Part shown: one piece after another, positions 3,661 through 18,544 of the stretch
Numbering within the stretch: the stretch's first letter is position 1
Layout of the letters: every line of letters begins with the position of its first letter
IMG/VR virus record: IMGVR_UViG_3300042691_031334
Coordinates: 1-32,767 of that record
Source: a virus
Length of the DNA: 32,767 nt
Direction: 5' to 3' (one strand)
Translations under genes and position numbers: made by a program
The notes under the pieces: model-generated
Seen by the model: the letters and a program-made list of their open reading frames with translations, nothing else
Told to the model about the DNA's origin: nothing
Database searches by the model: none

Positions 3661-4518
3661 ATGGAAACGATTTCAAAAATCAAAATCGCATTAGGTCTGG
3701 TGGGTCTATTGCTAGTGTTAATCTTATTCTCAAATTCTTGTGAGAGGATTGACGCAGGTCACGTTGGTGTCAAAGTAAATTTGTATGGTGATGGTAAAGG
3801 TATTGACGATATTACCGAAGTTACGGGTATCGCATTTTACAATCCATTCAGTCAGAAAATTTATGAATTCCCAACCTTTGTTCAACATAAAGAATATACC
3901 AAAACAGATGATCAAGATGAATCATTTGTGGTGAATTCAAAAGATGGATCAGAATTCCACGTAAGTCCAATCATTAACTATTCGGTAAAACGTGAGAGAG
4001 TACCTTATATCTTTGGAAAATATCGTAGAGATTTACCATCAATTGAGGAAGGATTCTTAAAGACTACAGTTTATGATGCGTTTAGAATGATTGCTAACTC
4101 ATATACCGCAGATGAAATGGTATCTCAGAGACAAAATTTTGAAAACAAAGTTCGTCGTCTTTTGGATAGTGTGTTAGTACCTGAAGGTTTTATCATCGGT
4201 CAAATGACATCTAATCTAGGTTATCCAAAACAATTCAAAGACGCAATTATTGCAAAGAATAATGCAATTCAATTAGGTTTAACCGCAGAAAATAGAGTTA
4301 AAACCGCACAAGCCGAGGCGAAAATCAAAGTGGCGACCGCAGAAGGTAATGCACAAGCAATGTTAACCCAAGCAAAGGCAGAGGCAGAAGCGAATAAGTT
4401 AAAACAATCAACCCTTACACCTATGTTGTTACAACAAATGTGGATCACAAAATGGAACGGTACTTTACCTTCCACACAACTCGGTTCAGGGACCAATATG
4501 ATGTATAACGTAAAATAA
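3661..4518 (+). CDS. SPFH/band-7 (prohibitin-like) membrane protein
   Basis: 285 aa. Residues 6-26 form one membrane anchor, followed by the SPFH core: AGHVGVKVNLYGDGKGIDD, an S-x-D-G-S-E-F-x-V-x-x-x-I-N-Y-S-V segment, an R-D-L...V-Y-D-A-F-R-M-I region and the R-Q-x-F-E-x-K-V-R-R-L-L helix. A long Ala/Glu/Lys coiled coil follows (about 205-245, AEAKIKVATAEGNAQAML). Such proteins form ring or scaffold assemblies at membranes and often bind proteases such as FtsH. Last gene of the operon starting at 2452, ended by a strong terminator. A role in protecting or remodelling the host membrane is inference. Confidence 0.88.
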   Translation: METISKIKIALGLVGLLLVLILFSNSCERIDAGHVGVKVNLYGDGKGIDDITEVTGIAFYNPFSQKIYEFPTFVQHKEYTKTDDQDESFVVNSKDGSEFHVSPIINYSVKRERVPYIFGKYRRDLPSIEEGFLKTTVYDAFRMIANSYTADEMVSQRQNFENKVRRLLDSVLVPEGFIIGQMTSNLGYPKQFKDAIIAKNNAIQLGLTAENRVKTAQAEAKIKVATAEGNAQAMLTQAKAEAEANKLKQSTLTPMLLQQMWITKWNGTLPSTQLGSGTNMMYNVK

Positions 4519-4576: not shown

Positions 4577-5551
4577 ATGGCAGAAACATTAAACTTAGTA
4601 AATCCAAACGACATTTTATCATTCAAATATGAAATCAGTCGTTTTCCCGATGGTCAACAATCTTTAAGATTGGTTGAAGATGGGTACAACACTTTTAATT
4701 CACTCAAAGAAAACTCACAAGGAATAACAATCAAATCTCGTTTGAATACGTTTCAGGATTTGGAAATTATTATTTGTGCAACACAAGCACTGAAAGAGGT
4801 TGGTGTTAATCGTATTCGTCTTTATATTCCATATTGTATGGGTGCAAGAAGTGACCGTAAGTTTATGGAAGGTGGAATAAATTATGTTAAGACAGTTATC
4901 GCACCTATCATCAACTCACAAGGTTATGAACAAGTAATCATCCTTGATCCGCACTCAGACGTTCTTGAAGCATGTATCAATAATTTTAAGAAGAAGGATA
5001 CATCCGATTTACTTGATTTTGCTTTTCGTGATTATTTTATCTCAAAAGGTTTTGAAACTTTCGATGCAAGTAATTTTGATGGGGTTCGTTTGGTATCACC
5101 CGATGCCGGTGCTTTGAAAAAGGTGTTTCACGCAGCAGAACAAATCAAATACAAAAATGAAGTCATCATAGCATCAAAACATCGTAATCTTGAAACCGGT
5201 AAAATTGATTACACAAATGTACCGATGTCTGTAAATGATGCCGATAAAGATGTCTTTATTCTTGATGACATTTGTGATGGTGGTAGAACATTCACTGAGA
5301 TTGCCAAAGCAATTAATGAGGTTAGAAAATTATCAAGTTCGGTTCAACCAGAACAATATGGTAAAAATTATTTGATTGTCACTCACGGTATTTTCAGTTC
5401 AGGATTTGATTCTCTTTCCCAATACTTTGATGGTATCTATACCACAAACAGTGTTAAGGATATTCAAGATGGTACCATCGTTAATACATTCTCAAGACAC
5501 AAAACCATTGATTCTTTAGTTAAACAACTCAACGTATTTTATTATGGATAA
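4577..5551 (+). CDS. prs: PRPP synthetase family enzyme (Prs or ADPR-pyrophosphate synthetase)
   Basis: 324 aa, normal length for the family. Motifs seen: the ATP-contacting loop YIPYCMGARSDR (83-94, canonical PYxRQDR), D-P-H-S (124-127), S-P-D-A-G (174-178), K-H-R-N (201-204) and the PRPP-binding loop FILDDICDGGRTF (227-239). The standard reaction is ribose-5-phosphate + ATP to PRPP + AMP. Phage homologues next to a Nampt-like gene have been shown to pyrophosphorylate ADP-ribose instead (Adps of the NARP1 pathway), and the neighbourhood fits either reaction. It overlaps the HAD gene by 8 nt, and the Nampt-like gene follows. Which substrate is used cannot be read from the sequence alone. Confidence 0.9.
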   Translation: MAETLNLVNPNDILSFKYEISRFPDGQQSLRLVEDGYNTFNSLKENSQGITIKSRLNTFQDLEIIICATQALKEVGVNRIRLYIPYCMGARSDRKFMEGGINYVKTVIAPIINSQGYEQVIILDPHSDVLEACINNFKKKDTSDLLDFAFRDYFISKGFETFDASNFDGVRLVSPDAGALKKVFHAAEQIKYKNEVIIASKHRNLETGKIDYTNVPMSVNDADKDVFILDDICDGGRTFTEIAKAINEVRKLSSSVQPEQYGKNYLIVTHGIFSSGFDSLSQYFDGIYTTNSVKDIQDGTIVNTFSRHKTIDSLVKQLNVFYYG

Positions 5552-5978
5552 TTATTTTGAATTAAATCCCGAATCCAAACCATTCTTGGATAGATTGGTA
5601 ACTGAATGGGAACAACACGGTAAGATTATTATTGCCTGTGACTATGATGACACTATTAGTCCTTGGAAAATGCACAACAATGACTTTAATCGTGTTATCC
5701 GTGTTTTGAAAGCAGCAAAATTTACGGGAGCATACTTGGTTATCTTCACAGCGTGTGACACCCAAAGATATGATGAGATTAAATCATATTGTAAATCAAA
5801 AGATTTGGAGATTGATTCCATTAACCAAACACCGATTGACTTACCTTATGGTAAGAATGGTAAGGTATATGCTAACATTTTCATTGATGATCGTGCAGGA
5901 TTGAACGAATCTTTGAATATTTTGGAATCCGCGACATATATTATTCGGGGAAAAAGTCAAAAATATTTTGAATTCTAA
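5544..5978 (+). CDS. HAD-superfamily hydrolase (small phosphatase)
   Basis: 144 aa. HAD motifs: D-Y-D-D-T (33-37; D33 nucleophile, D35 general acid), motif II T69 in IFTACD, Lys in GKNGK (about 104-107) and motif IV I-D-D-R-A-G (114-119). The K-V-Y-A-N-I-F-I-D-D-R-A ending resembles the small HAD family of phages and Bacteroides (BT0820-like), which lacks a large cap domain and acts on small phosphorylated molecules. Overlap with the upstream synthetase gene suggests coupled expression and a linked task, for example removing a phosphate from a nucleotide intermediate; that role is inference. Confidence 0.85.
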   Translation: MDNYFELNPESKPFLDRLVTEWEQHGKIIIACDYDDTISPWKMHNNDFNRVIRVLKAAKFTGAYLVIFTACDTQRYDEIKSYCKSKDLEIDSINQTPIDLPYGKNGKVYANIFIDDRAGLNESLNILESATYIIRGKSQKYFEF

Positions 5979-6008
5979 AAAATAAAAATTAACTTTGTAA
6001 CGTTAAAA
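5967..6008 (+). promoter_or_regulatory. Type A promoter with palindrome TAACGTTA
   Basis: TTTG 5967-5970, 19-bp spacer, TAACTTTG 5990-5997, then the perfect palindrome TAACGTTA at 5998-6005. It shares box and initial transcribed bases with the promoter at 2425. Confidence 0.8.
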
Positions 6009-6015
6009 ACAAATT

Positions 6016-7539
6016 ATGATAAATCCATTTTTATTAGCAGATGGGTACAAGGTTGGTCACCACCAACAGTATCCAAAAGGAACAACATTAGTTTATTCCA
6101 ATTTTACACCAAGAAGTAACAAACACGCACCGAAAGGGTGTAACGAAGTTGTTGTGTTTGGAACACAAATGGTGATGAAACAAATTCACGAAATGTTTGA
6201 TTTAGGTTTTTTCAAACGACCAAAATCGGAAGTTTGTGATGAAATCCAACGAGAACTTACGATGTATTTGGGAACAGATTACGACACATCACACATCGAA
6301 GCATTACACGACTTGGGTTATTTACCAATTCACGTTAAAACCTTAGCCGAAGGAACATTGGCACCGATTAAAGTTCCGGTATTAACAATTTACAATACTG
6401 TTCCTGAATTTTATTGGATTACAAACTTTTTGGAGACCATTTTATCCAACTTGTTATGGAAACCTATGACCTCGGCAACTATCGCCAGACAATACCGAAA
6501 AGTTTTGAATGGATGGATGGAAAAAACGGATCCATCAAATGCTTGGTTTGTTGATTGGCAAGGGCACGACTTCTCAATGAGGGGGATGGATTCTGTAGAA
6601 GCGGTTATCGCATCAGGTCTTGGTCACTTAACATCATTTTCAGGTTCAGATTCTCTTCCTACAATTTATGGAGCACGTAAATACTACAACGAAACTGATT
6701 TTGTTTGTGGTTCTGTTCCCGCAACCGAACACTCGGTAATGTGTGCCGGTGGGAAAGAAGATGAGGTGGATACATTCCGTAGATTACTTGAGACATATCC
6801 AAAAGGTATTTTATCAGTAGTATCGGACACTTGGGACTTATGGAAAGTCTGTACCGAACACGTGGTAACATTGAAAGAAGAAATCTTGGCTCGTGATGGT
6901 AAGTTGGTTATTCGTCCTGACTCTGGAGATCCTGTTGATATTCTTTGTGGTAAAGGAATTTACCAAGCCGGCGATAGATTATTAACTAATGACGAAATTG
7001 ATGAAGACGTATATGCCCCAGAGTTCAAAGGTGTTATCGAATTACTTTGGGATGTATTTGGTGGCACAATAAATGAGCAAGGTTATAAAGTTCTTGACCC
7101 CCACATCGGAGCAATTTATGGTGATAGTATTACCATTGAACGTGCTGATGAAATCTGTCGTAGATTAGAATCAAAAGGTTTCGCATCAACAAATGTGGTT
7201 CTTGGTATTGGTTCATTCACTTACCAATACAATACCCGTGATACATTTGGATTTGCAATGAAGGCAACTTATGTAGAGGTTAATAAACCAAAATTCCCTG
7301 GTGATTTTAATCCTGAAGGTCGTGAAATCTTCAAGGACCCAATCACAGATGATGGAACCAAGAAATCCGCAACAGGGTTGTTATGTGTTGAAGAACACGA
7401 TGGTAAAATTGGTTTATACGACAAGGTATCTTGGGCAACTGAGGCAGACGGACTTTTACTATCAATTTATGTTGATGGTGAGTTTATCTATAGAACCACA
7501 TTAACCGAAGTCAGGAATAAGGTTAAAGAGAGTTTGTGA
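6016..7539 (+). CDS. nadV: Nicotinamide phosphoribosyltransferase family enzyme (Nampt/NadV or Namat)
   Basis: 507 aa, close to human NAMPT (491). Conserved landmarks: FWIT-like Y-W-I-T-N-F-L-E-T-I-L-S-N (133-145), W-K-P-M-T-S-A-T-I-A (148-157), H-D-F-x-M-R-G (184-190; F186 stacks nicotinamide), G-S-D-S (210-213; D212 positions the amide), T-E-H-S (237-240; H239 is the phosphorylated His) and I-R-P-D-S-G-D-P (299-306; R300 binds nicotinamide). All key residues are present. Canonical reaction: nicotinamide + PRPP to NMN; the related phage Namat joins nicotinamide to ADPR-PP to give NAD+ directly. No NMN adenylyltransferase is seen nearby, which slightly favours the one-step route. Confidence 0.93.
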   Translation: MINPFLLADGYKVGHHQQYPKGTTLVYSNFTPRSNKHAPKGCNEVVVFGTQMVMKQIHEMFDLGFFKRPKSEVCDEIQRELTMYLGTDYDTSHIEALHDLGYLPIHVKTLAEGTLAPIKVPVLTIYNTVPEFYWITNFLETILSNLLWKPMTSATIARQYRKVLNGWMEKTDPSNAWFVDWQGHDFSMRGMDSVEAVIASGLGHLTSFSGSDSLPTIYGARKYYNETDFVCGSVPATEHSVMCAGGKEDEVDTFRRLLETYPKGILSVVSDTWDLWKVCTEHVVTLKEEILARDGKLVIRPDSGDPVDILCGKGIYQAGDRLLTNDEIDEDVYAPEFKGVIELLWDVFGGTINEQGYKVLDPHIGAIYGDSITIERADEICRRLESKGFASTNVVLGIGSFTYQYNTRDTFGFAMKATYVEVNKPKFPGDFNPEGREIFKDPITDDGTKKSATGLLCVEEHDGKIGLYDKVSWATEADGLLLSIYVDGEFIYRTTLTEVRNKVKESL

Positions 7540-8864: not shown

Positions 8865-8870
8865 GGAGAT

Positions 8871-8879
8871 GGTATTTAT
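8871..8879 (+). promoter_or_regulatory. Type B promoter box
   Basis: GGTATTTAT, 13 nt before the chosen ATG at 8893. Confidence 0.45.
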
Positions 8880-8892
8880 GTTAAAAGACATC

Positions 8893-10209
8893 ATGAAAAA
8901 GTTATTGTTTATCACAATCCTTACATCCATTTTTACATTATCTTGGGGACAGTGTGCGTCTCAATGCCCTATCTTCACACCGGGTATGACCATTACACAG
9001 GTTAATCCGGGATCACCACCTTTTGGTGAAGATGTGACCAAAGTAATTGATGGAAACAGTAATACCAAATACTTGAACTTTAATAGAACAAATACGGGTT
9101 TTATTGTAAATACCGGAAAGAATACTACCGCTGTTAGGATGGACTTAACCACCGCCAACGATGAACCATCACGAGATCCTATTGATTATCAAATACAGGG
9201 TAGTAATAATGGGACTTCTTGGACTACTATTGCATCAGGTAACATCTCTTGTAACTCTAATAGATTCCTTACTAGAAGTTTTAACTTCACAAATAACACA
9301 TCATATTCTTGGTATAGAATAACATTTACATCAGTCTGTAATCTTAGTTTCGCTAACTCAATGCAAGTCGCCGAGGTGCAACTATATTCAAATAGTGTTA
9401 CACCATCAGTAACAATATCAAGGAGTTCAAATAATGTATGTCAAGGAACTAATATCACATTTACAACAACCCCCACAAATGGTGGTACCCCTACATATCA
9501 GTGGAGGAGAAATGGGTCTAATGTTGTTGGTGCGACAGGTTCTTCATGGATATCAAACAATATAAACAATAACGATGTAATCACTTGTGTTATGACATCA
9601 AACGCGCCTTGTATCACAACATCCAATGTGACATCTAATTCACTAACAATGGGTGTTACCTCAAAAGTAACACCATCAGTATCTATATTAGGAAATCCAT
9701 CTGTGGTTAGAAAAAATACGGTTACCTTACAAGCGTTACCGGTGAATGGTGGTGGAGCACCAACATATAAGTGGTATAAAAATAACGTATTAAAATCCAC
9801 ATCAAATCCTTGGACTGATAGTGCTAACGTTGCGGGTACTGACACAATTAGAGTGGTTATGAGGACTTCCCAATCTTGTATAACTATTGATTCAGCTATT
9901 GCGAATTATAATATCACTGTATTATCTTTAACCGATGTTGATGTATTTCAGACTTTAGATAAAATCCATTTTAGTTTTGTAAAAAACGCTGATGATGTGG
10001 TTTCCATCTATGAGTTTAATGAGAAAACGGGTAAGTCAAGATTGATGACCACAACTACCGACTTAAATGTGGTGTTAGAACATACGTCCAAATACTATTT
10101 AGTAGTTTCAGATGGGTATAGTCGTTATTTTGGACCTTTTTCAATAGTTGCCGAGGAACCTCGTAGAACATTATCAATCAAACAATTACTCGGACAAGTC
10201 GTAGATTAA
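8893..10209 (+). CDS. Exported adhesin-like protein: F5/8C (discoidin)-like plus two Ig-like domains
   Basis: Start at ATG 8893, so that the signal peptide (KKLLFITILTSIFTLSWGQ) begins at the N-terminus; upstream in-frame ATGs at 8869 and 8881 would spoil it. 438 aa. About residues 20-165 resemble an F5/8 type C fold: V-I-D-G-N-S-N-T-K-Y, then Y-Q-I-Q-G-S-N-N-G-T-S-W-T-T-I and A-E-V-Q-L-Y. Two Bacteroidetes-style Ig-like domains follow (CQGTNITFTTTPTNGG...YQWRRNG; VTLQALPVNGG...YKWYKNN). The last 80 residues are another beta domain ending SIKQLLGQVVD, loosely like a T9SS-type tail but without the P-N-P motif. Such domains bind glycans; the host surface or medium is the expected location. Confidence 0.8.
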   Translation: MKKLLFITILTSIFTLSWGQCASQCPIFTPGMTITQVNPGSPPFGEDVTKVIDGNSNTKYLNFNRTNTGFIVNTGKNTTAVRMDLTTANDEPSRDPIDYQIQGSNNGTSWTTIASGNISCNSNRFLTRSFNFTNNTSYSWYRITFTSVCNLSFANSMQVAEVQLYSNSVTPSVTISRSSNNVCQGTNITFTTTPTNGGTPTYQWRRNGSNVVGATGSSWISNNINNNDVITCVMTSNAPCITTSNVTSNSLTMGVTSKVTPSVSILGNPSVVRKNTVTLQALPVNGGGAPTYKWYKNNVLKSTSNPWTDSANVAGTDTIRVVMRTSQSCITIDSAIANYNITVLSLTDVDVFQTLDKIHFSFVKNADDVVSIYEFNEKTGKSRLMTTTTDLNVVLEHTSKYYLVVSDGYSRYFGPFSIVAEEPRRTLSIKQLLGQVVD

Positions 10210-10288
10210 CATAAGTTTAATATAAAGACAATATATAGATAACACCATCTTAATATACCATACCTACTTATTAAAAAACAAAAAGCGT

Positions 10289-11797
10289 ATGGTAAAAAAT
10301 TACTTAATGGTGGTATTATTGTTCTTAACCACAATAACAAAAGGACAATTCTTAGATTCAACGAATTATCGTGGTGCGTTCTCACCAAATCAATCTATGT
10401 GGACCGATGGTTGGTGTAATTGGTCACCCGAATCAACAACGTATCCAACACCAAACGTTACAATTACAGGTAACATTAGTCAGAACACAACTTGGACATC
10501 AAATAATACATATCTTCTTTCAGGACTTGTTTATGTTGATTCTGGTGTGATATTAACCATTCAACCAGGCACAATCATCAGAGGTAATTCAAGTATCTCA
10601 AACTCGTCCTTATTGATTAAAAAAGGTGGTAAGTTAATCGCACAAGGAACATCATCAAATCCTATTGTATTCACATCAAATAATAGTGTGGGAAATAGAA
10701 CCATTGGAGATTGGGGTGGTGTTATCTTATTAGGTAGAGCAACGATGAATCAAGGTGTAGGTTTTATTGAAGGGTTAGCCGCAATATCAGACCATCAATA
10801 TGGTGGTTCAGATGATAATGATAACTCAGGTATCTTATCTTATGTTCGTATTGAGTATGGTGGTTATGTATTCGCACAGAACAAAGAGATCAATGGTTTA
10901 ACTATGGGTGCGGTAGGTAGAGGAACACAGATTGACCACATTCAATGTTCATATATCAATGACGATGCGTTTGAATGGTATGGTGGGTCAGTAAATTGTA
11001 AGTATTTGGTTTCATATAGAAACTTGGATGATGATTTTGATACCGATTTTGGTTATCACGGTTTGGTACAATATGGTTTATCAGTTCGTGATCCACAGAT
11101 TGCAGATAATTCATATACATTACCATCGGGCGGATCAACTTCAGAAGGTTTTGAATCCGACAACGATGCAAATGGTTCAAACTTACAACCATTCACAAAT
11201 GCAACATTTTCAAACTTCACAATGATTGGTCCATTTAGAGGTAATAATAGTTCATCAGTTCACCCGGCATTTAGAAGAGGTGCTAGAATTAGAAGAAACT
11301 CTCAATTAAAGATTGTTAATTCAATCATCTCGGATTGGGCAACAGGAGTTATGATTGATGGTGTTGCGTGTGATTCAAACGCAAGAACAGGTTTATTAGT
11401 TGTGAATAATAACATCATCACAAACTACAGAACAAGAGTGGGTGAAAGAAGTTCATCAAGCACATTCAACGTATTAGGATTTTTGGGTGATAATAACGAC
11501 ACAATTCCGGCAAGTTCAATGATGGTTCGTCCATATGATTTTACAAATCCCGATTATAGATTAAAATCACTATCAACCGACATTATCACATCACAAATAA
11601 CATTATATCCAAACCCATCAAATGGTGAGTTCTTTATTCAATCTGAAAACGATAACCTATGGATATACAATAACTTGGGTCAAGTTGTTCATCAACAAAA
11701 ACTAATAAAAGGAACAAATAATATTCAAGTGAATTTACCGACAGGGTGTTATATTCTCAAAACACAAAATCAAATAATAAAATTAGTAATTAGATAA
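10289..11797 (+). CDS. Exported beta-helix protein with T9SS type A sorting domain
   Basis: 502 aa. Signal peptide MVKNYLMVVLLFLTTITKGQ. The body (about 30-420) has the repeating short strands of a right-handed beta-helix (VTITGNISQNTTW; GVILTIQPGTIIRGNSS; LIKKGGKLIAQGTSSNPIVF) and an Asp/Asn-rich stretch. The last 66 residues (from 437) are a type IX secretion C-terminal domain: ITLYPNPSNGEFFIQ, then the L-W-I-Y-N-N-L-G-Q-V-V strand and L-P-T-G-C-Y-I-L-K. In Bacteroidetes such tails route proteins across the outer membrane to the cell surface. Unusual in a phage: the host machinery should display it on infected cells. An 79-nt gap without a clear promoter separates it from the preceding exported protein, so probably cotranscribed. 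Confidence 0.88.
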   Translation: MVKNYLMVVLLFLTTITKGQFLDSTNYRGAFSPNQSMWTDGWCNWSPESTTYPTPNVTITGNISQNTTWTSNNTYLLSGLVYVDSGVILTIQPGTIIRGNSSISNSSLLIKKGGKLIAQGTSSNPIVFTSNNSVGNRTIGDWGGVILLGRATMNQGVGFIEGLAAISDHQYGGSDDNDNSGILSYVRIEYGGYVFAQNKEINGLTMGAVGRGTQIDHIQCSYINDDAFEWYGGSVNCKYLVSYRNLDDDFDTDFGYHGLVQYGLSVRDPQIADNSYTLPSGGSTSEGFESDNDANGSNLQPFTNATFSNFTMIGPFRGNNSSSVHPAFRRGARIRRNSQLKIVNSIISDWATGVMIDGVACDSNARTGLLVVNNNIITNYRTRVGERSSSSTFNVLGFLGDNNDTIPASSMMVRPYDFTNPDYRLKSLSTDIITSQITLYPNPSNGEFFIQSENDNLWIYNNLGQVVHQQKLIKGTNNIQVNLPTGCYILKTQNQIIKLVIR

Positions 11798-11825: not shown

Positions 11826-11827
11826 GT

Positions 11828-11836
11828 GATATTTAT
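11828..11836 (+). promoter_or_regulatory. Type B promoter box (endolysin)
   Basis: GATATTTAT, 13 nt before the ATG at 11850. It lies directly behind the terminator. Confidence 0.55.
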
Positions 11837-11849
11837 TAAGAAAACTATT

Positions 11850-12446
11850 ATGGATATTAACAAACTTAAAGGACACATACCAGATTCGGTATTGACACAA
11901 ATCCCGATGGTTGTTCAAAAATTTGGAATGGACACACCATTAGAATTATCACACTTTTTGGCACAATGTGCTCACGAGAGTGGAAACTTCAAAGCGGTTT
12001 CTGAAAACCTAAACTACTCTGCAGATGGATTGAAGAAAATTTTTCCAAAATACTTTGCGGGAACATTAAACGAACAATATGCTCGTAACCCTGAGAAGAT
12101 TGCATCAAGAGTATATGGTGGTCGTATGGGTAATGGTGATGAAACAACAAAAGACGGATGGAAATACAGAGGTCGTGGATACATCCAATTAACAGGTAAA
12201 GCAAACTATCAAGAGTTTGACAAATTTGTTGATGATGATATCACAAACAATCCTGATTTGGTGGCAACAAAATATCCGTTGTTATCCGCAGCTTGGTTCT
12301 TCCACAAAAACAAATTAAATGAGATCTCAGCAAAGGGTGATACCGAAGCAGTTGTAACCTCAGTAACAAAACGAGTGAATGGCGGTACAATAGGTTTAAC
12401 CGATAGAATTAAACACTTCAAACACTTTTACGGACTACTTAAGTAA
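11850..12446 (+). CDS. Endolysin, GH19 chitinase/lysozyme-like
   Basis: 198 aa, a single catalytic domain with no signal peptide, so export through a holin is expected. GH19 features: L-A-Q-C-A-H-E-S-G-N-F (37-47) with catalytic Glu43, L-N-Y-S-A-D-G-L (54-61), A-S-R-V-Y-G-G-R-M-G-N (85-95) and the G-R-G-Y-I-Q-L-T-G-x-x-N-Y signature (108-120). Phage GH19 enzymes cut the glycan strands of peptidoglycan and release virions. ATG 11850 was chosen over 11826 because the earlier ATG overlaps the promoter box. Confidence 0.93.
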   Translation: MDINKLKGHIPDSVLTQIPMVVQKFGMDTPLELSHFLAQCAHESGNFKAVSENLNYSADGLKKIFPKYFAGTLNEQYARNPEKIASRVYGGRMGNGDETTKDGWKYRGRGYIQLTGKANYQEFDKFVDDDITNNPDLVATKYPLLSAAWFFHKNKLNEISAKGDTEAVVTSVTKRVNGGTIGLTDRIKHFKHFYGLLK

Positions 12447-16813: not shown

Positions 16814-17650
16814 TTATTTAATAATCACATTGGTCATTAAATTATAACCAACAGTATAAGATGCCGACATTAAAAGACTTCTTTTGATGATCTGTGACCA
16901 AGAAGTTGTTTCATAAAGACTTATTGGGAAAGCCAAAGATATTGACGTAATATAACTAGTTTTGGTCATATGCCATAGATCAGACTTAAACCAAAGATTA
17001 CCAATTCTCATTTCACGATCCCAACTACTCGGAAGACCACCCCAACCCATATGATTCCAAAACGCAGGATCCATATTAGGAAAGGTGTTTCTAAATTGTG
17101 CCGGATGATTGATAATCTCACTATTCATACCATAAGACAACCCAGCCAACATCGCAAACCCACAACCGACAGTAATTCTTGTCTTGGTGTATTGTGAAAA
17201 GTTAGTGGCGAATATCTTAACTCCGTTTTCAGTTTCTTTCATATTCACCTTAAAGTCCTTATCAAATGGTAAGAATTTTGCTTGTTCTTTAATGGTATCG
17301 TATGTAACATATAAACCTAATTTCGCAGCTTCTTCAACTTTTTGTTTATAAGATAATAATTCTTTTCTCAGAGAATCCGTTATAAATAAAACAGAGTCAG
17401 TATAAACATACTTTGTTATCACACTATCTTTATACTTAACTAAAGTATCCGTGACGGTTTTGAAAGAATCTAACGCAATTACTTGGCTTTTGAAGGTACT
17501 ATCTATTTTTTTGGATTGATCCAAGGTAATAATAACCACACTATCACCTCGATAATACTTTATCTGAGGATATTTTTGTTTACCCGGACCTTGACCAAAT
17601 GCCATAATAGACATCAATGTAAGGAAAATCAATAAATATAACTTTTTCAT
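16814..17650 (-). CDS. Exported protein with coiled region and hydrophobic C-terminal half, 278 aa
   Basis: Signal peptide MKKLYLLIFLTLMSIMAFGQ, cut before G. Residues 40-120 are a Lys/Asp/Thr-rich coiled or repeat region (DSFKTVTDTLVKYKDSVITK). The C-terminal half has W/G-rich loops (FWNHMGWGGLPSSWDREMRI) and several hydrophobic stretches (VGCGFAMLAGLSYGM; YITSISLAFPISLYE), suggesting membrane contact. Last of four tightly packed genes (2-4 nt gaps) with two holin-like and one coiled-coil membrane protein. It could be the outer-membrane component of a lysis system, but this rests on context only. Confidence 0.7.
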   Translation of the reverse strand: MKKLYLLIFLTLMSIMAFGQGPGKQKYPQIKYYRGDSVVIITLDQSKKIDSTFKSQVIALDSFKTVTDTLVKYKDSVITKYVYTDSVLFITDSLRKELLSYKQKVEEAAKLGLYVTYDTIKEQAKFLPFDKDFKVNMKETENGVKIFATNFSQYTKTRITVGCGFAMLAGLSYGMNSEIINHPAQFRNTFPNMDPAFWNHMGWGGLPSSWDREMRIGNLWFKSDLWHMTKTSYITSISLAFPISLYETTSWSQIIKRSLLMSASYTVGYNLMTNVIIK

Positions 17651-17652
17651 GG

Positions 17653-18045
17653 TTAGTTCTTCAATGGACCCAAAGGAATTTTCTTACCTTCAGTGTCTAA
17701 TTCTCTCAAATCATCTTTTAAGGACTTGATTTCATCCTTTAAATCATCTATTTGAGTTTTATACTTTTTTTCTGTAGTAGTGATTGCCGAGTTAATTGCT
17801 GAACTCATAGCATCTTTTGTACTATCAGATAGTCCTTGTGATAGTGCCGAATTTTCAGTTTTAAGATCAGAATTTTCTTCTTTCAGTTGTTCGTTTTCAT
17901 TTCTTAAACCCGTATTTTCTTTGTAGAGTTCTAAGTTTTCTTTAACTACTGTGACGTGTTTATCACCCGCAAACCCAACTTGGAAAACAACAAATCCTAC
18001 ACTACCAACAACGATACTGATGGTAATAATTCCTTTTGTAAACAT
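17653..18045 (-). CDS. Membrane-anchored coiled-coil protein (inner-membrane spanin-like)
   Basis: 130 aa. One N-terminal membrane helix (GIITISIVVGSVGFVVFQVG, about 5-24), then an almost unbroken coiled coil with Leu/Asn/Glu heptads (ENTGLRNENEQLKEENSDLK) and a second coil (QIDDLKDEIKSLKDDL). This type II topology with a periplasmic coiled coil is that of inner-membrane spanins, which help fuse the inner and outer membranes at lysis. Position between holin-like genes and an exported protein supports a lysis role; no sequence family was recognised. Confidence 0.65.
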   Translation of the reverse strand: MFTKGIITISIVVGSVGFVVFQVGFAGDKHVTVVKENLELYKENTGLRNENEQLKEENSDLKTENSALSQGLSDSTKDAMSSAINSAITTTEKKYKTQIDDLKDEIKSLKDDLRELDTEGKKIPLGPLKN

Positions 18046-18049
18046 ATTC

Positions 18050-18331
18050 TTATTTCTTTGTGTTTTTAATCACAAGAAGATCCCTCAGTTCCAAATATGA
18101 CTTTCTGTTCGTTTCAGCAAGATCTTTTAACTGATTGATATCATCTTCAACATAAGAATTAAGACGATTCTCAAGGTCGTTTAATTTAGTGTTAAGTTTT
18201 TCTTCTGTCTCAAGTTGTCTCTGTAATAACTTCCAACAAACCCAACCCAAACCTAAAGTGGCAATACCGAGAACACCATACTGTATCAGAGAATCAAAGA
18301 TTCCTGCTGACGGTACTGTTTGAAGTATCAT
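18050..18331 (-). CDS. Holin-like small membrane protein 2, 93 aa
   Basis: A single membrane segment near the N-terminus (QYGVLGIATLGLGWVCWKLL, about 17-36), then a charged coiled coil (ETEEKLNTKLNDLENRL). The membrane segment matches that of the neighbouring protein: D/Q-Y-G-x-L-G-I/L-x-x-L-x-L-G-x-V-x-W-K. This one-helix-plus-charged-tail layout is common in small phage holins and antiholins. 3 nt from the preceding stop. Confidence 0.65.
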   Translation of the reverse strand: MILQTVPSAGIFDSLIQYGVLGIATLGLGWVCWKLLQRQLETEEKLNTKLNDLENRLNSYVEDDINQLKDLAETNRKSYLELRDLLVIKNTKK

Positions 18332-18334
18332 ATC

Positions 18335-18544
18335 TTATTTCTTTTTATAAAGGTCTTGTTGACATTTATCTAACTTGTCTCTTAAATCGTCAGCTTCTTT
18401 GATCTTCTTGTCTATAAATTTCCAAGCAACAAATCCAAGTGCTAATACGATTAGTCCCAATGCACCATAATCGGTTAACATTGTAAATACACCAAAATCT
18501 TGACCTGTTTTGGTAACTGCTGCGGTTGTGTCTAGTAATACCAT
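18335..18544 (-). CDS. Holin-like small membrane protein 1, 69 aa
   Basis: One membrane helix (DYGALGLIVLALGFVAWKFI, about 25-44) followed by a short charged tail (KKIKEADDLRDKLDKCQQDL). Paralogous to the next gene (shared Y-G-x-L-G ... L-G-x-V-x-W-K core). Two adjacent, unequal paralogues of this type often form a holin/antiholin pair. First gene of the operon, behind a type B box, consistent with late expression. Confidence 0.68.
   Translation of the reverse strand: MVLLDTTAAVTKTGQDFGVFTMLTDYGALGLIVLALGFVAWKFIDKKIKEADDLRDKLDKCQQDLYKKK

Follow-up and report, generated by a model that had tools for sequence, protein, structure and literature searches.

A phage gene for a beta-helix cargo of the type IX secretion system and its candidate role in phosphorus acquisition by Bacteroidota phages

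The gene, its product, and its surroundings

The window analyzed here is the whole 32,767-nucleotide stretch of the virus record IMGVR_UViG_3300042691_031334. It carries an F-type gene, i.e., one of the FI/FII/FIII kind discussed below, with the following features.

8869 to 10209, plus strand: upstream neighbor, an exported F5/8C and Ig protein with a conserved C-terminal tail, not shown to share the function of the F gene
10206 to 10221, plus strand: weak, degenerate Pho-box-like repeat TTAAC-N6-TTAAT (9/10), 68 to 83 bp before the start codon and overlapping the stop codon of the upstream gene
10289 to 11797, plus strand: F-type gene with an ATG start, encoding a secreted beta-helix protein of 502 amino acids with a type IX secretion system (T9SS) type A sorting domain
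10289 to 10345, plus strand: Sec signal peptide, residues 1 to 19, with Gln20 as the presumed mature N terminus (from sequence; the model has a helix at residues 2 to 16)
10346 to 11578, plus strand: right-handed beta-helix body, residues 20 to 430 (predicted model, fold comparison, and invariant Asp-rich motifs in 33 relatives)
11603 to 11791, plus strand: T9SS type A C-terminal sorting domain (CTD), residues 439 to 501 (TIGR04183, PF18962, and structure matches)
11826 to 12446, plus strand: GH19-type endolysin, directly 3' of the F gene; the two genes are also close in the related phages G002 and L002
16814 to 18544, minus strand: four small genes, a lysis-cassette-like block displaced in the window, whose homologues in G002 separate the F gene from the endolysin

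A first-pass annotation had read this gene as encoding a T9SS cargo with a Sec signal, a beta-helix, and a type A CTD, and our searches bear this out. The N terminus of the protein is a Sec-type signal, MVKNYLMVVLLFLTTITKG, with the cleavage site read by eye before QFLD. A Gln directly after the presumed cleavage site fits the Bacteroidetes “Q-rule” (PMC5837995). The proposed check of the CTD by profile search gave a significant match, with TIGR04183 covering residues 439 to 501 at an E value of 3.4e-10 and 39.8 bits (cut-off of 23), and PF18962 reached 35.9 bits (cut-off of 27). The same annotation had implied a T9SS-bearing Bacteroidota host. This agrees with the presence of the T9SS translocon protein SprA in 6/6 genomes that carry close bacterial homologues of the phage copies.

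We modeled the protein with AlphaFold2 using a 33-row alignment, replacing a 9-row model with a pLDDT of 59.7. The new model had a mean pLDDT of 85.2 and a pTM of 0.81, with the CTD portion at about 70 to 77. Its body is a right-handed beta-helix that matches the AlgE4 epimerase, PL6 lyases, polygalacturonases, and tailspikes with Z scores of about 20 to 23, and Asp-rich motifs are invariant across the 33 relatives. The C-terminal beta-sandwich aligned with the RgpB CTD (5ag8) with an rmsd of 2.2 over 71 columns, and the T9SS CTD chains 7pzj, 8glk, and 8glj were matched by the family profile. We found no PHROGs family for the protein.

The window contig is a genuine phage fragment. The record encodes, besides the GH19 endolysin, a ClpP-like head maturation protease, NAMPT, and PRPP synthetase. 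Homologues of 12 window proteins occur in a 159-kb relative, G002, that encodes a terminase large subunit. As separate observations, PRPP synthetase, a phosphoheptose-isomerase-like gene, and NAMPT lie in a row at 4577 to 7539 as a phage NAD salvage module, and positions 3661 to 4518 encode a phage SPFH/Band 7 protein (phrog_200) that is possibly membrane associated.

The whole window protein is kept at 73 to 76% identity in L002 and in L003, the locus of G002. Among these three proteins, the body is far more conserved than the CTD, which retains its PNP and GxY motifs. A GH19 endolysin lies near the F gene in all three phages, and this placement beside the lysis region suggests late expression. 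In G002, four small genes separate the F gene from the endolysin; the same four are inverted at 16814 to 18544 in the window. Terminator-like hairpins lie just 5' of the F gene in L002 and L003. No TonB receptor gene was found in the window or G002, both of which may be fragments.

We also considered whether the upstream neighbor (8869 to 10209) is a truncated second T9SS cargo. This was rejected, as its LSxKQLLGQ tail is the conserved end of 8 phage proteins and holds no CTD remnant. The full tail, Y-K-YIGPFEL..DEP+K-LSTKQLLGQ, ends this protein and its relatives in L002, L008 to L011, L013, and L014, proteins of differing lengths, and could be a C-terminal tag on an F5/8C and Ig protein encoded before a GH19 endolysin.

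Relatives in Bacteroidota hosts and in phages

A profile search found the beta-helix body family in 195 of 296 sampled Bacteroidota genomes. Where we read the loci, drawn mainly from the best-scoring matches, a TonB-dependent receptor adjoined the body-family gene in 16/20; none adjoined it in L107 and L112, the closest bacterial relatives. The family also lies near phosphate genes. Among the 27 genomes having phoU, again mainly best-scoring matches, phoU fell within 10 kb of the body gene in 6, with 0.20 expected (P of 4e-8). At L167, pstA, pstB, and phoU lie upstream of a body-receptor pair, L176 has PiT and DUF47 at the body-family locus, and several host loci also carry pst/phoU, PiT, or PhoB/PhoR-like genes.

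In Flavobacterium johnsoniae, the low-phosphate cluster PUSIII spans Fjoh_3859 to Fjoh_3853 (PMC8115612). Its FI protein (Fjoh_3856) is both the most induced gene and, at 18.7%, the most abundant exoprotein at low phosphate, while FII and FIII are Fjoh_0546 and Fjoh_4889 (PMC8115612). FIII is an orphan, such that an adjoining TonB-dependent receptor is usual in the FI-type family and not universal (PMC8115612). We found the PUSIII layout (receptor, body lipoprotein, secreted protein, lipoprotein, and S41-like peptidase) in L184, L194, and L195. Pfam confirmed an ECF sigma factor, FecR, a T9SS-CTD adhesin, and the S41 peptidase in L184, and the gene at the FI position was matched by the family profile at about 1e-84. 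The window protein thus appears to belong to the FI-type family, an assignment based on PUSIII synteny and on homology to G265 and similar genomes.

The window family resembles FI/FII/FIII in its homologous body, which occupies the place of FI in clusters arranged like PUSIII, in the TonB-receptor partner of many members, and in predicted export to the surface. One difference is the anchor, as the F. johnsoniae exoproteins are reported to be lipoproteins (PMC8115612) and the window protein is a T9SS cargo; both anchors occur in the family. Another is that the window protein is phage encoded. A more distant parallel is ElpS of Caulobacter crescentus, a low-phosphate surface lipoprotein associated with alkaline phosphatase activity (PMC2996285) and reported to be related to the F proteins at 31 to 36% identity (PMC8115612). 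ElpS comes from another phylum and is a lipoprotein released in a T2SS-dependent manner.

We then examined viruses. A scan for the family gave 56 viral loci, of which 55 were examined for a receptor, and with LR745206 and the window added these formed 22 clusters. The family tree requires five switches between bacterial and phage carriers, each of them demanded by branches with good support. Phages have captured the family at least five times, as separate phage branches lie inside the bacterial tree. At 18/55 viral loci, a TonB-dependent receptor lies within 10 bp of the F gene, with a recognized CTD in 18/18. Plug and barrel domains were confirmed by Pfam in three phage receptors. In L206, about 1.7 kb separates the pair from the gene for a major head protein (phrog_138, 5.8e-68). 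The 635-kb phage LR745206 has a lipoprotein form of the F family followed by a TonB-dependent receptor. Terminase was present in 12/20 F-family viral contigs, one of them only a weak match. Searching a phage collection for the body returned three unannotated records, two being short gut records of doubtful origin.

It had been raised that the contig could be a chromosomal segment. This is countered, and chromosomal contamination as the source of the T9SS gene is rejected, by the terminases, the genes common to the window and G002, and the repeated capture.

Four further observations concern these viral genomes. In five related phage contigs (G358, G359, G361, G362, and G370), the match to the terminase large subunit reads through one in-frame TAA, which may reflect an intron, a split gene, or recoding. 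LR745206 carries, by sequence look, a patatin-like phospholipase gene (L006:5197-6192) about 6 kb from its pair of F protein and TonB receptor, possibly a phosphorus or lipid gene. A second and commoner phage T9SS cargo of about 640 amino acids occurs in L086 to L106 (e.g., L090:22-1740 and L106:4-1740) and at L201:10844-12778; some of these proteins have a cohesin domain, and repeats resembling dockerin are visible by eye. More broadly, a T9SS CTD was found in 20/50 viral records sharing the endolysin, mostly within about 11 kb of it.

Pho-box-like repeats upstream of the genes

Searching the regions 5' of the operons for spaced repeats, we found TTAACA/CTTAAC pairs at 11-bp spacing. Within the target regions, only 11 stood out among periods 6 to 19, and repeat searches at other spacings gave no comparable signal. 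The perfect form, TTAAC-N6-TTAAC, was present in 7/22 phage clusters versus 1/395 other upstream regions of the same loci (P of 3e-9), where all seven perfect phage boxes belong to one phage clade and are not seven independent events. For host operons, the count was 5/27 versus 6/199 controls. The TTAAC repeat also preceded 8/18 host pst/phoU operons versus 4/60 controls, each target having been chosen as the best among several candidate promoters. Part of the data later used for counting had already served to discover the motif, and, as the motif shuffles do not keep dinucleotides, the controls from upstream regions carry the argument. In the close relatives of the window, the best repeat in L002 scores 8 and the copy in L003 is AT-rich.

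The published form of the Pho box, PyTTAAPyPyT/A, is matched by the TTAAC repeat, while prediction of Pho boxes in phages is unreliable (PMC10976474). We found no published Bacteroidota Pho box with the TTAAC-repeat sequence in the open-access literature.

Proposed role at the cell surface and alternative explanations

We consider that the window gene is probably an auxiliary gene for phosphorus acquisition, captured from a Bacteroidota host and working at the surface via the host T9SS and, in many relatives, via host PhoB. Its product would be a surface beta-helix protein of the FI/FII/FIII kind, which phosphate-starved hosts would make as the partner of a TonB-dependent transporter. During infection, it would be exported by Sec, its CTD would direct it to the host T9SS for passage across the outer membrane, and it would be displayed on the surface. 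There it may bind organic phosphate or process it and so supply a TonB-dependent transporter, which would be the host's own for the phage of the window and phage encoded in many relatives. In many relatives, a Pho-box-like promoter would let host PhoB turn on the gene or operon under a shortage of phosphate, which phage DNA requires. What we computed directly is the family, the sorting domain, the fold, the pairing with TonB receptors in hosts and phages, the phoU linkage, the PUSIII synteny, the repeated capture, and the repeat motif; from these, we infer secretion and surface display, the ligand, the transport partner, PhoB control, and the benefit to the phage.

The first-pass annotation had offered blocking of receptors, altered adhesion or motility, or a depolymerase as functions for the displayed protein. 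We do not favor these as the leading function because homology, host operon context, PUSIII synteny, receptor pairing in phages, and the Pho-box-like promoters point to phosphorus acquisition. TonB receptors often serve as phage receptors, and Llp of phage T5 acts on one such receptor, FhuA, to mask it. The displayed protein could likewise cover a TonB-dependent receptor used for phage entry, preventing superinfection or loss of progeny on the debris of lysed cells. The common use of TonB receptors for entry and the pairing of the family with such receptors in hosts would suit this, as would the fact that window-type phages encode the partner without a receptor, with the gene beside the endolysin in a place consistent with late expression. 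However, 18/55 viral loci and LR745206 encode a receptor beside the partner, which would add receptors to the surface, and Pho-box-like promoters are unexpected for an exclusion factor. In addition, the whole body is kept and strongly conserved between phages, fitting a retained native function. We regard receptor masking as unlikely overall, but given the location in the lysis region and the lack of a receptor in the clade of the window, it stays the main rival for this particular phage.

Rather less probable is an enzyme that cuts host capsule, exopolysaccharide, or an environmental glycan from outside, aiding the release or spread of progeny. The likeness of the fold to alginate epimerases, PL6 lyases, polygalacturonases, and phage tailspike depolymerases would fit, as would the neighboring endolysin and the modeling of the F proteins as polygalacturonase-like (PMC8115612). 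Yet right-handed beta-helices also occur in non-enzymes such as NosD and PfbA, a common fold shows no function, and Pfam matched no lyase or glycosidase family in the window protein. Furthermore, in the loci that were read, the genes of the host relatives neighbor those for TonB receptors and phosphate functions. A tailspike depolymerase is a beta-helix virion protein lacking an export signal, whereas the window protein has a Sec signal and a T9SS CTD. These same signals would remove the protein from the cytoplasm, the site of virion assembly, and a receptor partner cannot be part of a virion. A component of the particle, e.g., a tail or neck adhesin, is for these reasons the least probable reading, even with a neighbor (8869 to 10209) resembling tail proteins by PHROG and the L206 pair close to a major head protein gene. 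It is also very improbable that the gene represents host DNA in misassembled contigs or a chance capture with no function. The IMG/VR records are predictions, several of them short, and MT838075 and MT837092 may be host DNA, but the gene occurs among phage genes in three phages, at about 75% identity, its open frames and sorting domain are preserved, terminases occur in 12/20 contigs, and there were five or more separate acquisitions.

The proposed role in phosphorus acquisition has precedents in part. Cyanophage pstS and other phage phosphorus genes are under host PhoBR and likewise represent phage-carried phosphate acquisition with host-type Pho boxes (PMC10976474, PMC10987575), but they act in the periplasm or cytoplasm. 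Neither an outer-membrane receptor nor a protein exported by T9SS is on a list of phage phosphorus genes from soil (ppa, ppx, phoD, pstSCAB, pit, ugp, phn, phoBRU, and yjbB) (PMC10987575). Nor is the window protein the first T9SS cargo of a phage. As in the window, type A sorting domains of the T9SS are encoded in Cryophage (PMC7468147) and near the ORFs of crAss-BACON, as in its cluster 2 (PMC6949934). Those cargos differ in being endoglucanase, GH39, PA14, and BACON proteins with proposed roles in virulence, competition, or exclusion. The “SusC” of the megaphages Mar_Mega_1 and LR745206 (PMC9723777) is a phage-encoded TonB-dependent receptor, as in the relatives of the F gene, and in LR745206 a receptor directly follows the gene for an F-family lipoprotein. 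The accessible part of that report reads “SusC” as carbohydrate uptake and does not note the partner protein or a link to phosphate. We found no report in the open-access literature joining a phosphorus function to a phage module of T9SS cargo and TonB receptor.

Taken together, we lean, by a modest degree, toward a wider model in which Bacteroidota phages repeatedly carry an outer-membrane module for phosphorus uptake. The module would consist of an FI-type protein, anchored via T9SS or by lipid and in some phages accompanied by its own TonB-dependent transporter, in many cases under a host-type Pho box. By remodeling the surface, the phage would bring in organic phosphate once starvation is sensed by the host. 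If so, the outer membrane and type IX secretion would join what phages use to feed replication, whereas the phage phosphorus genes described so far, best studied in cyanophages, act in the periplasm or cytoplasm. It would also give a function to a type of T9SS cargo that recurs in phages of Bacteroidota, suggest that the megaphage “SusC” be reread as a transporter of phosphate and not sugar, and provide a candidate Bacteroidota Pho box as well as a handle on the biochemical role of the FI-type family.
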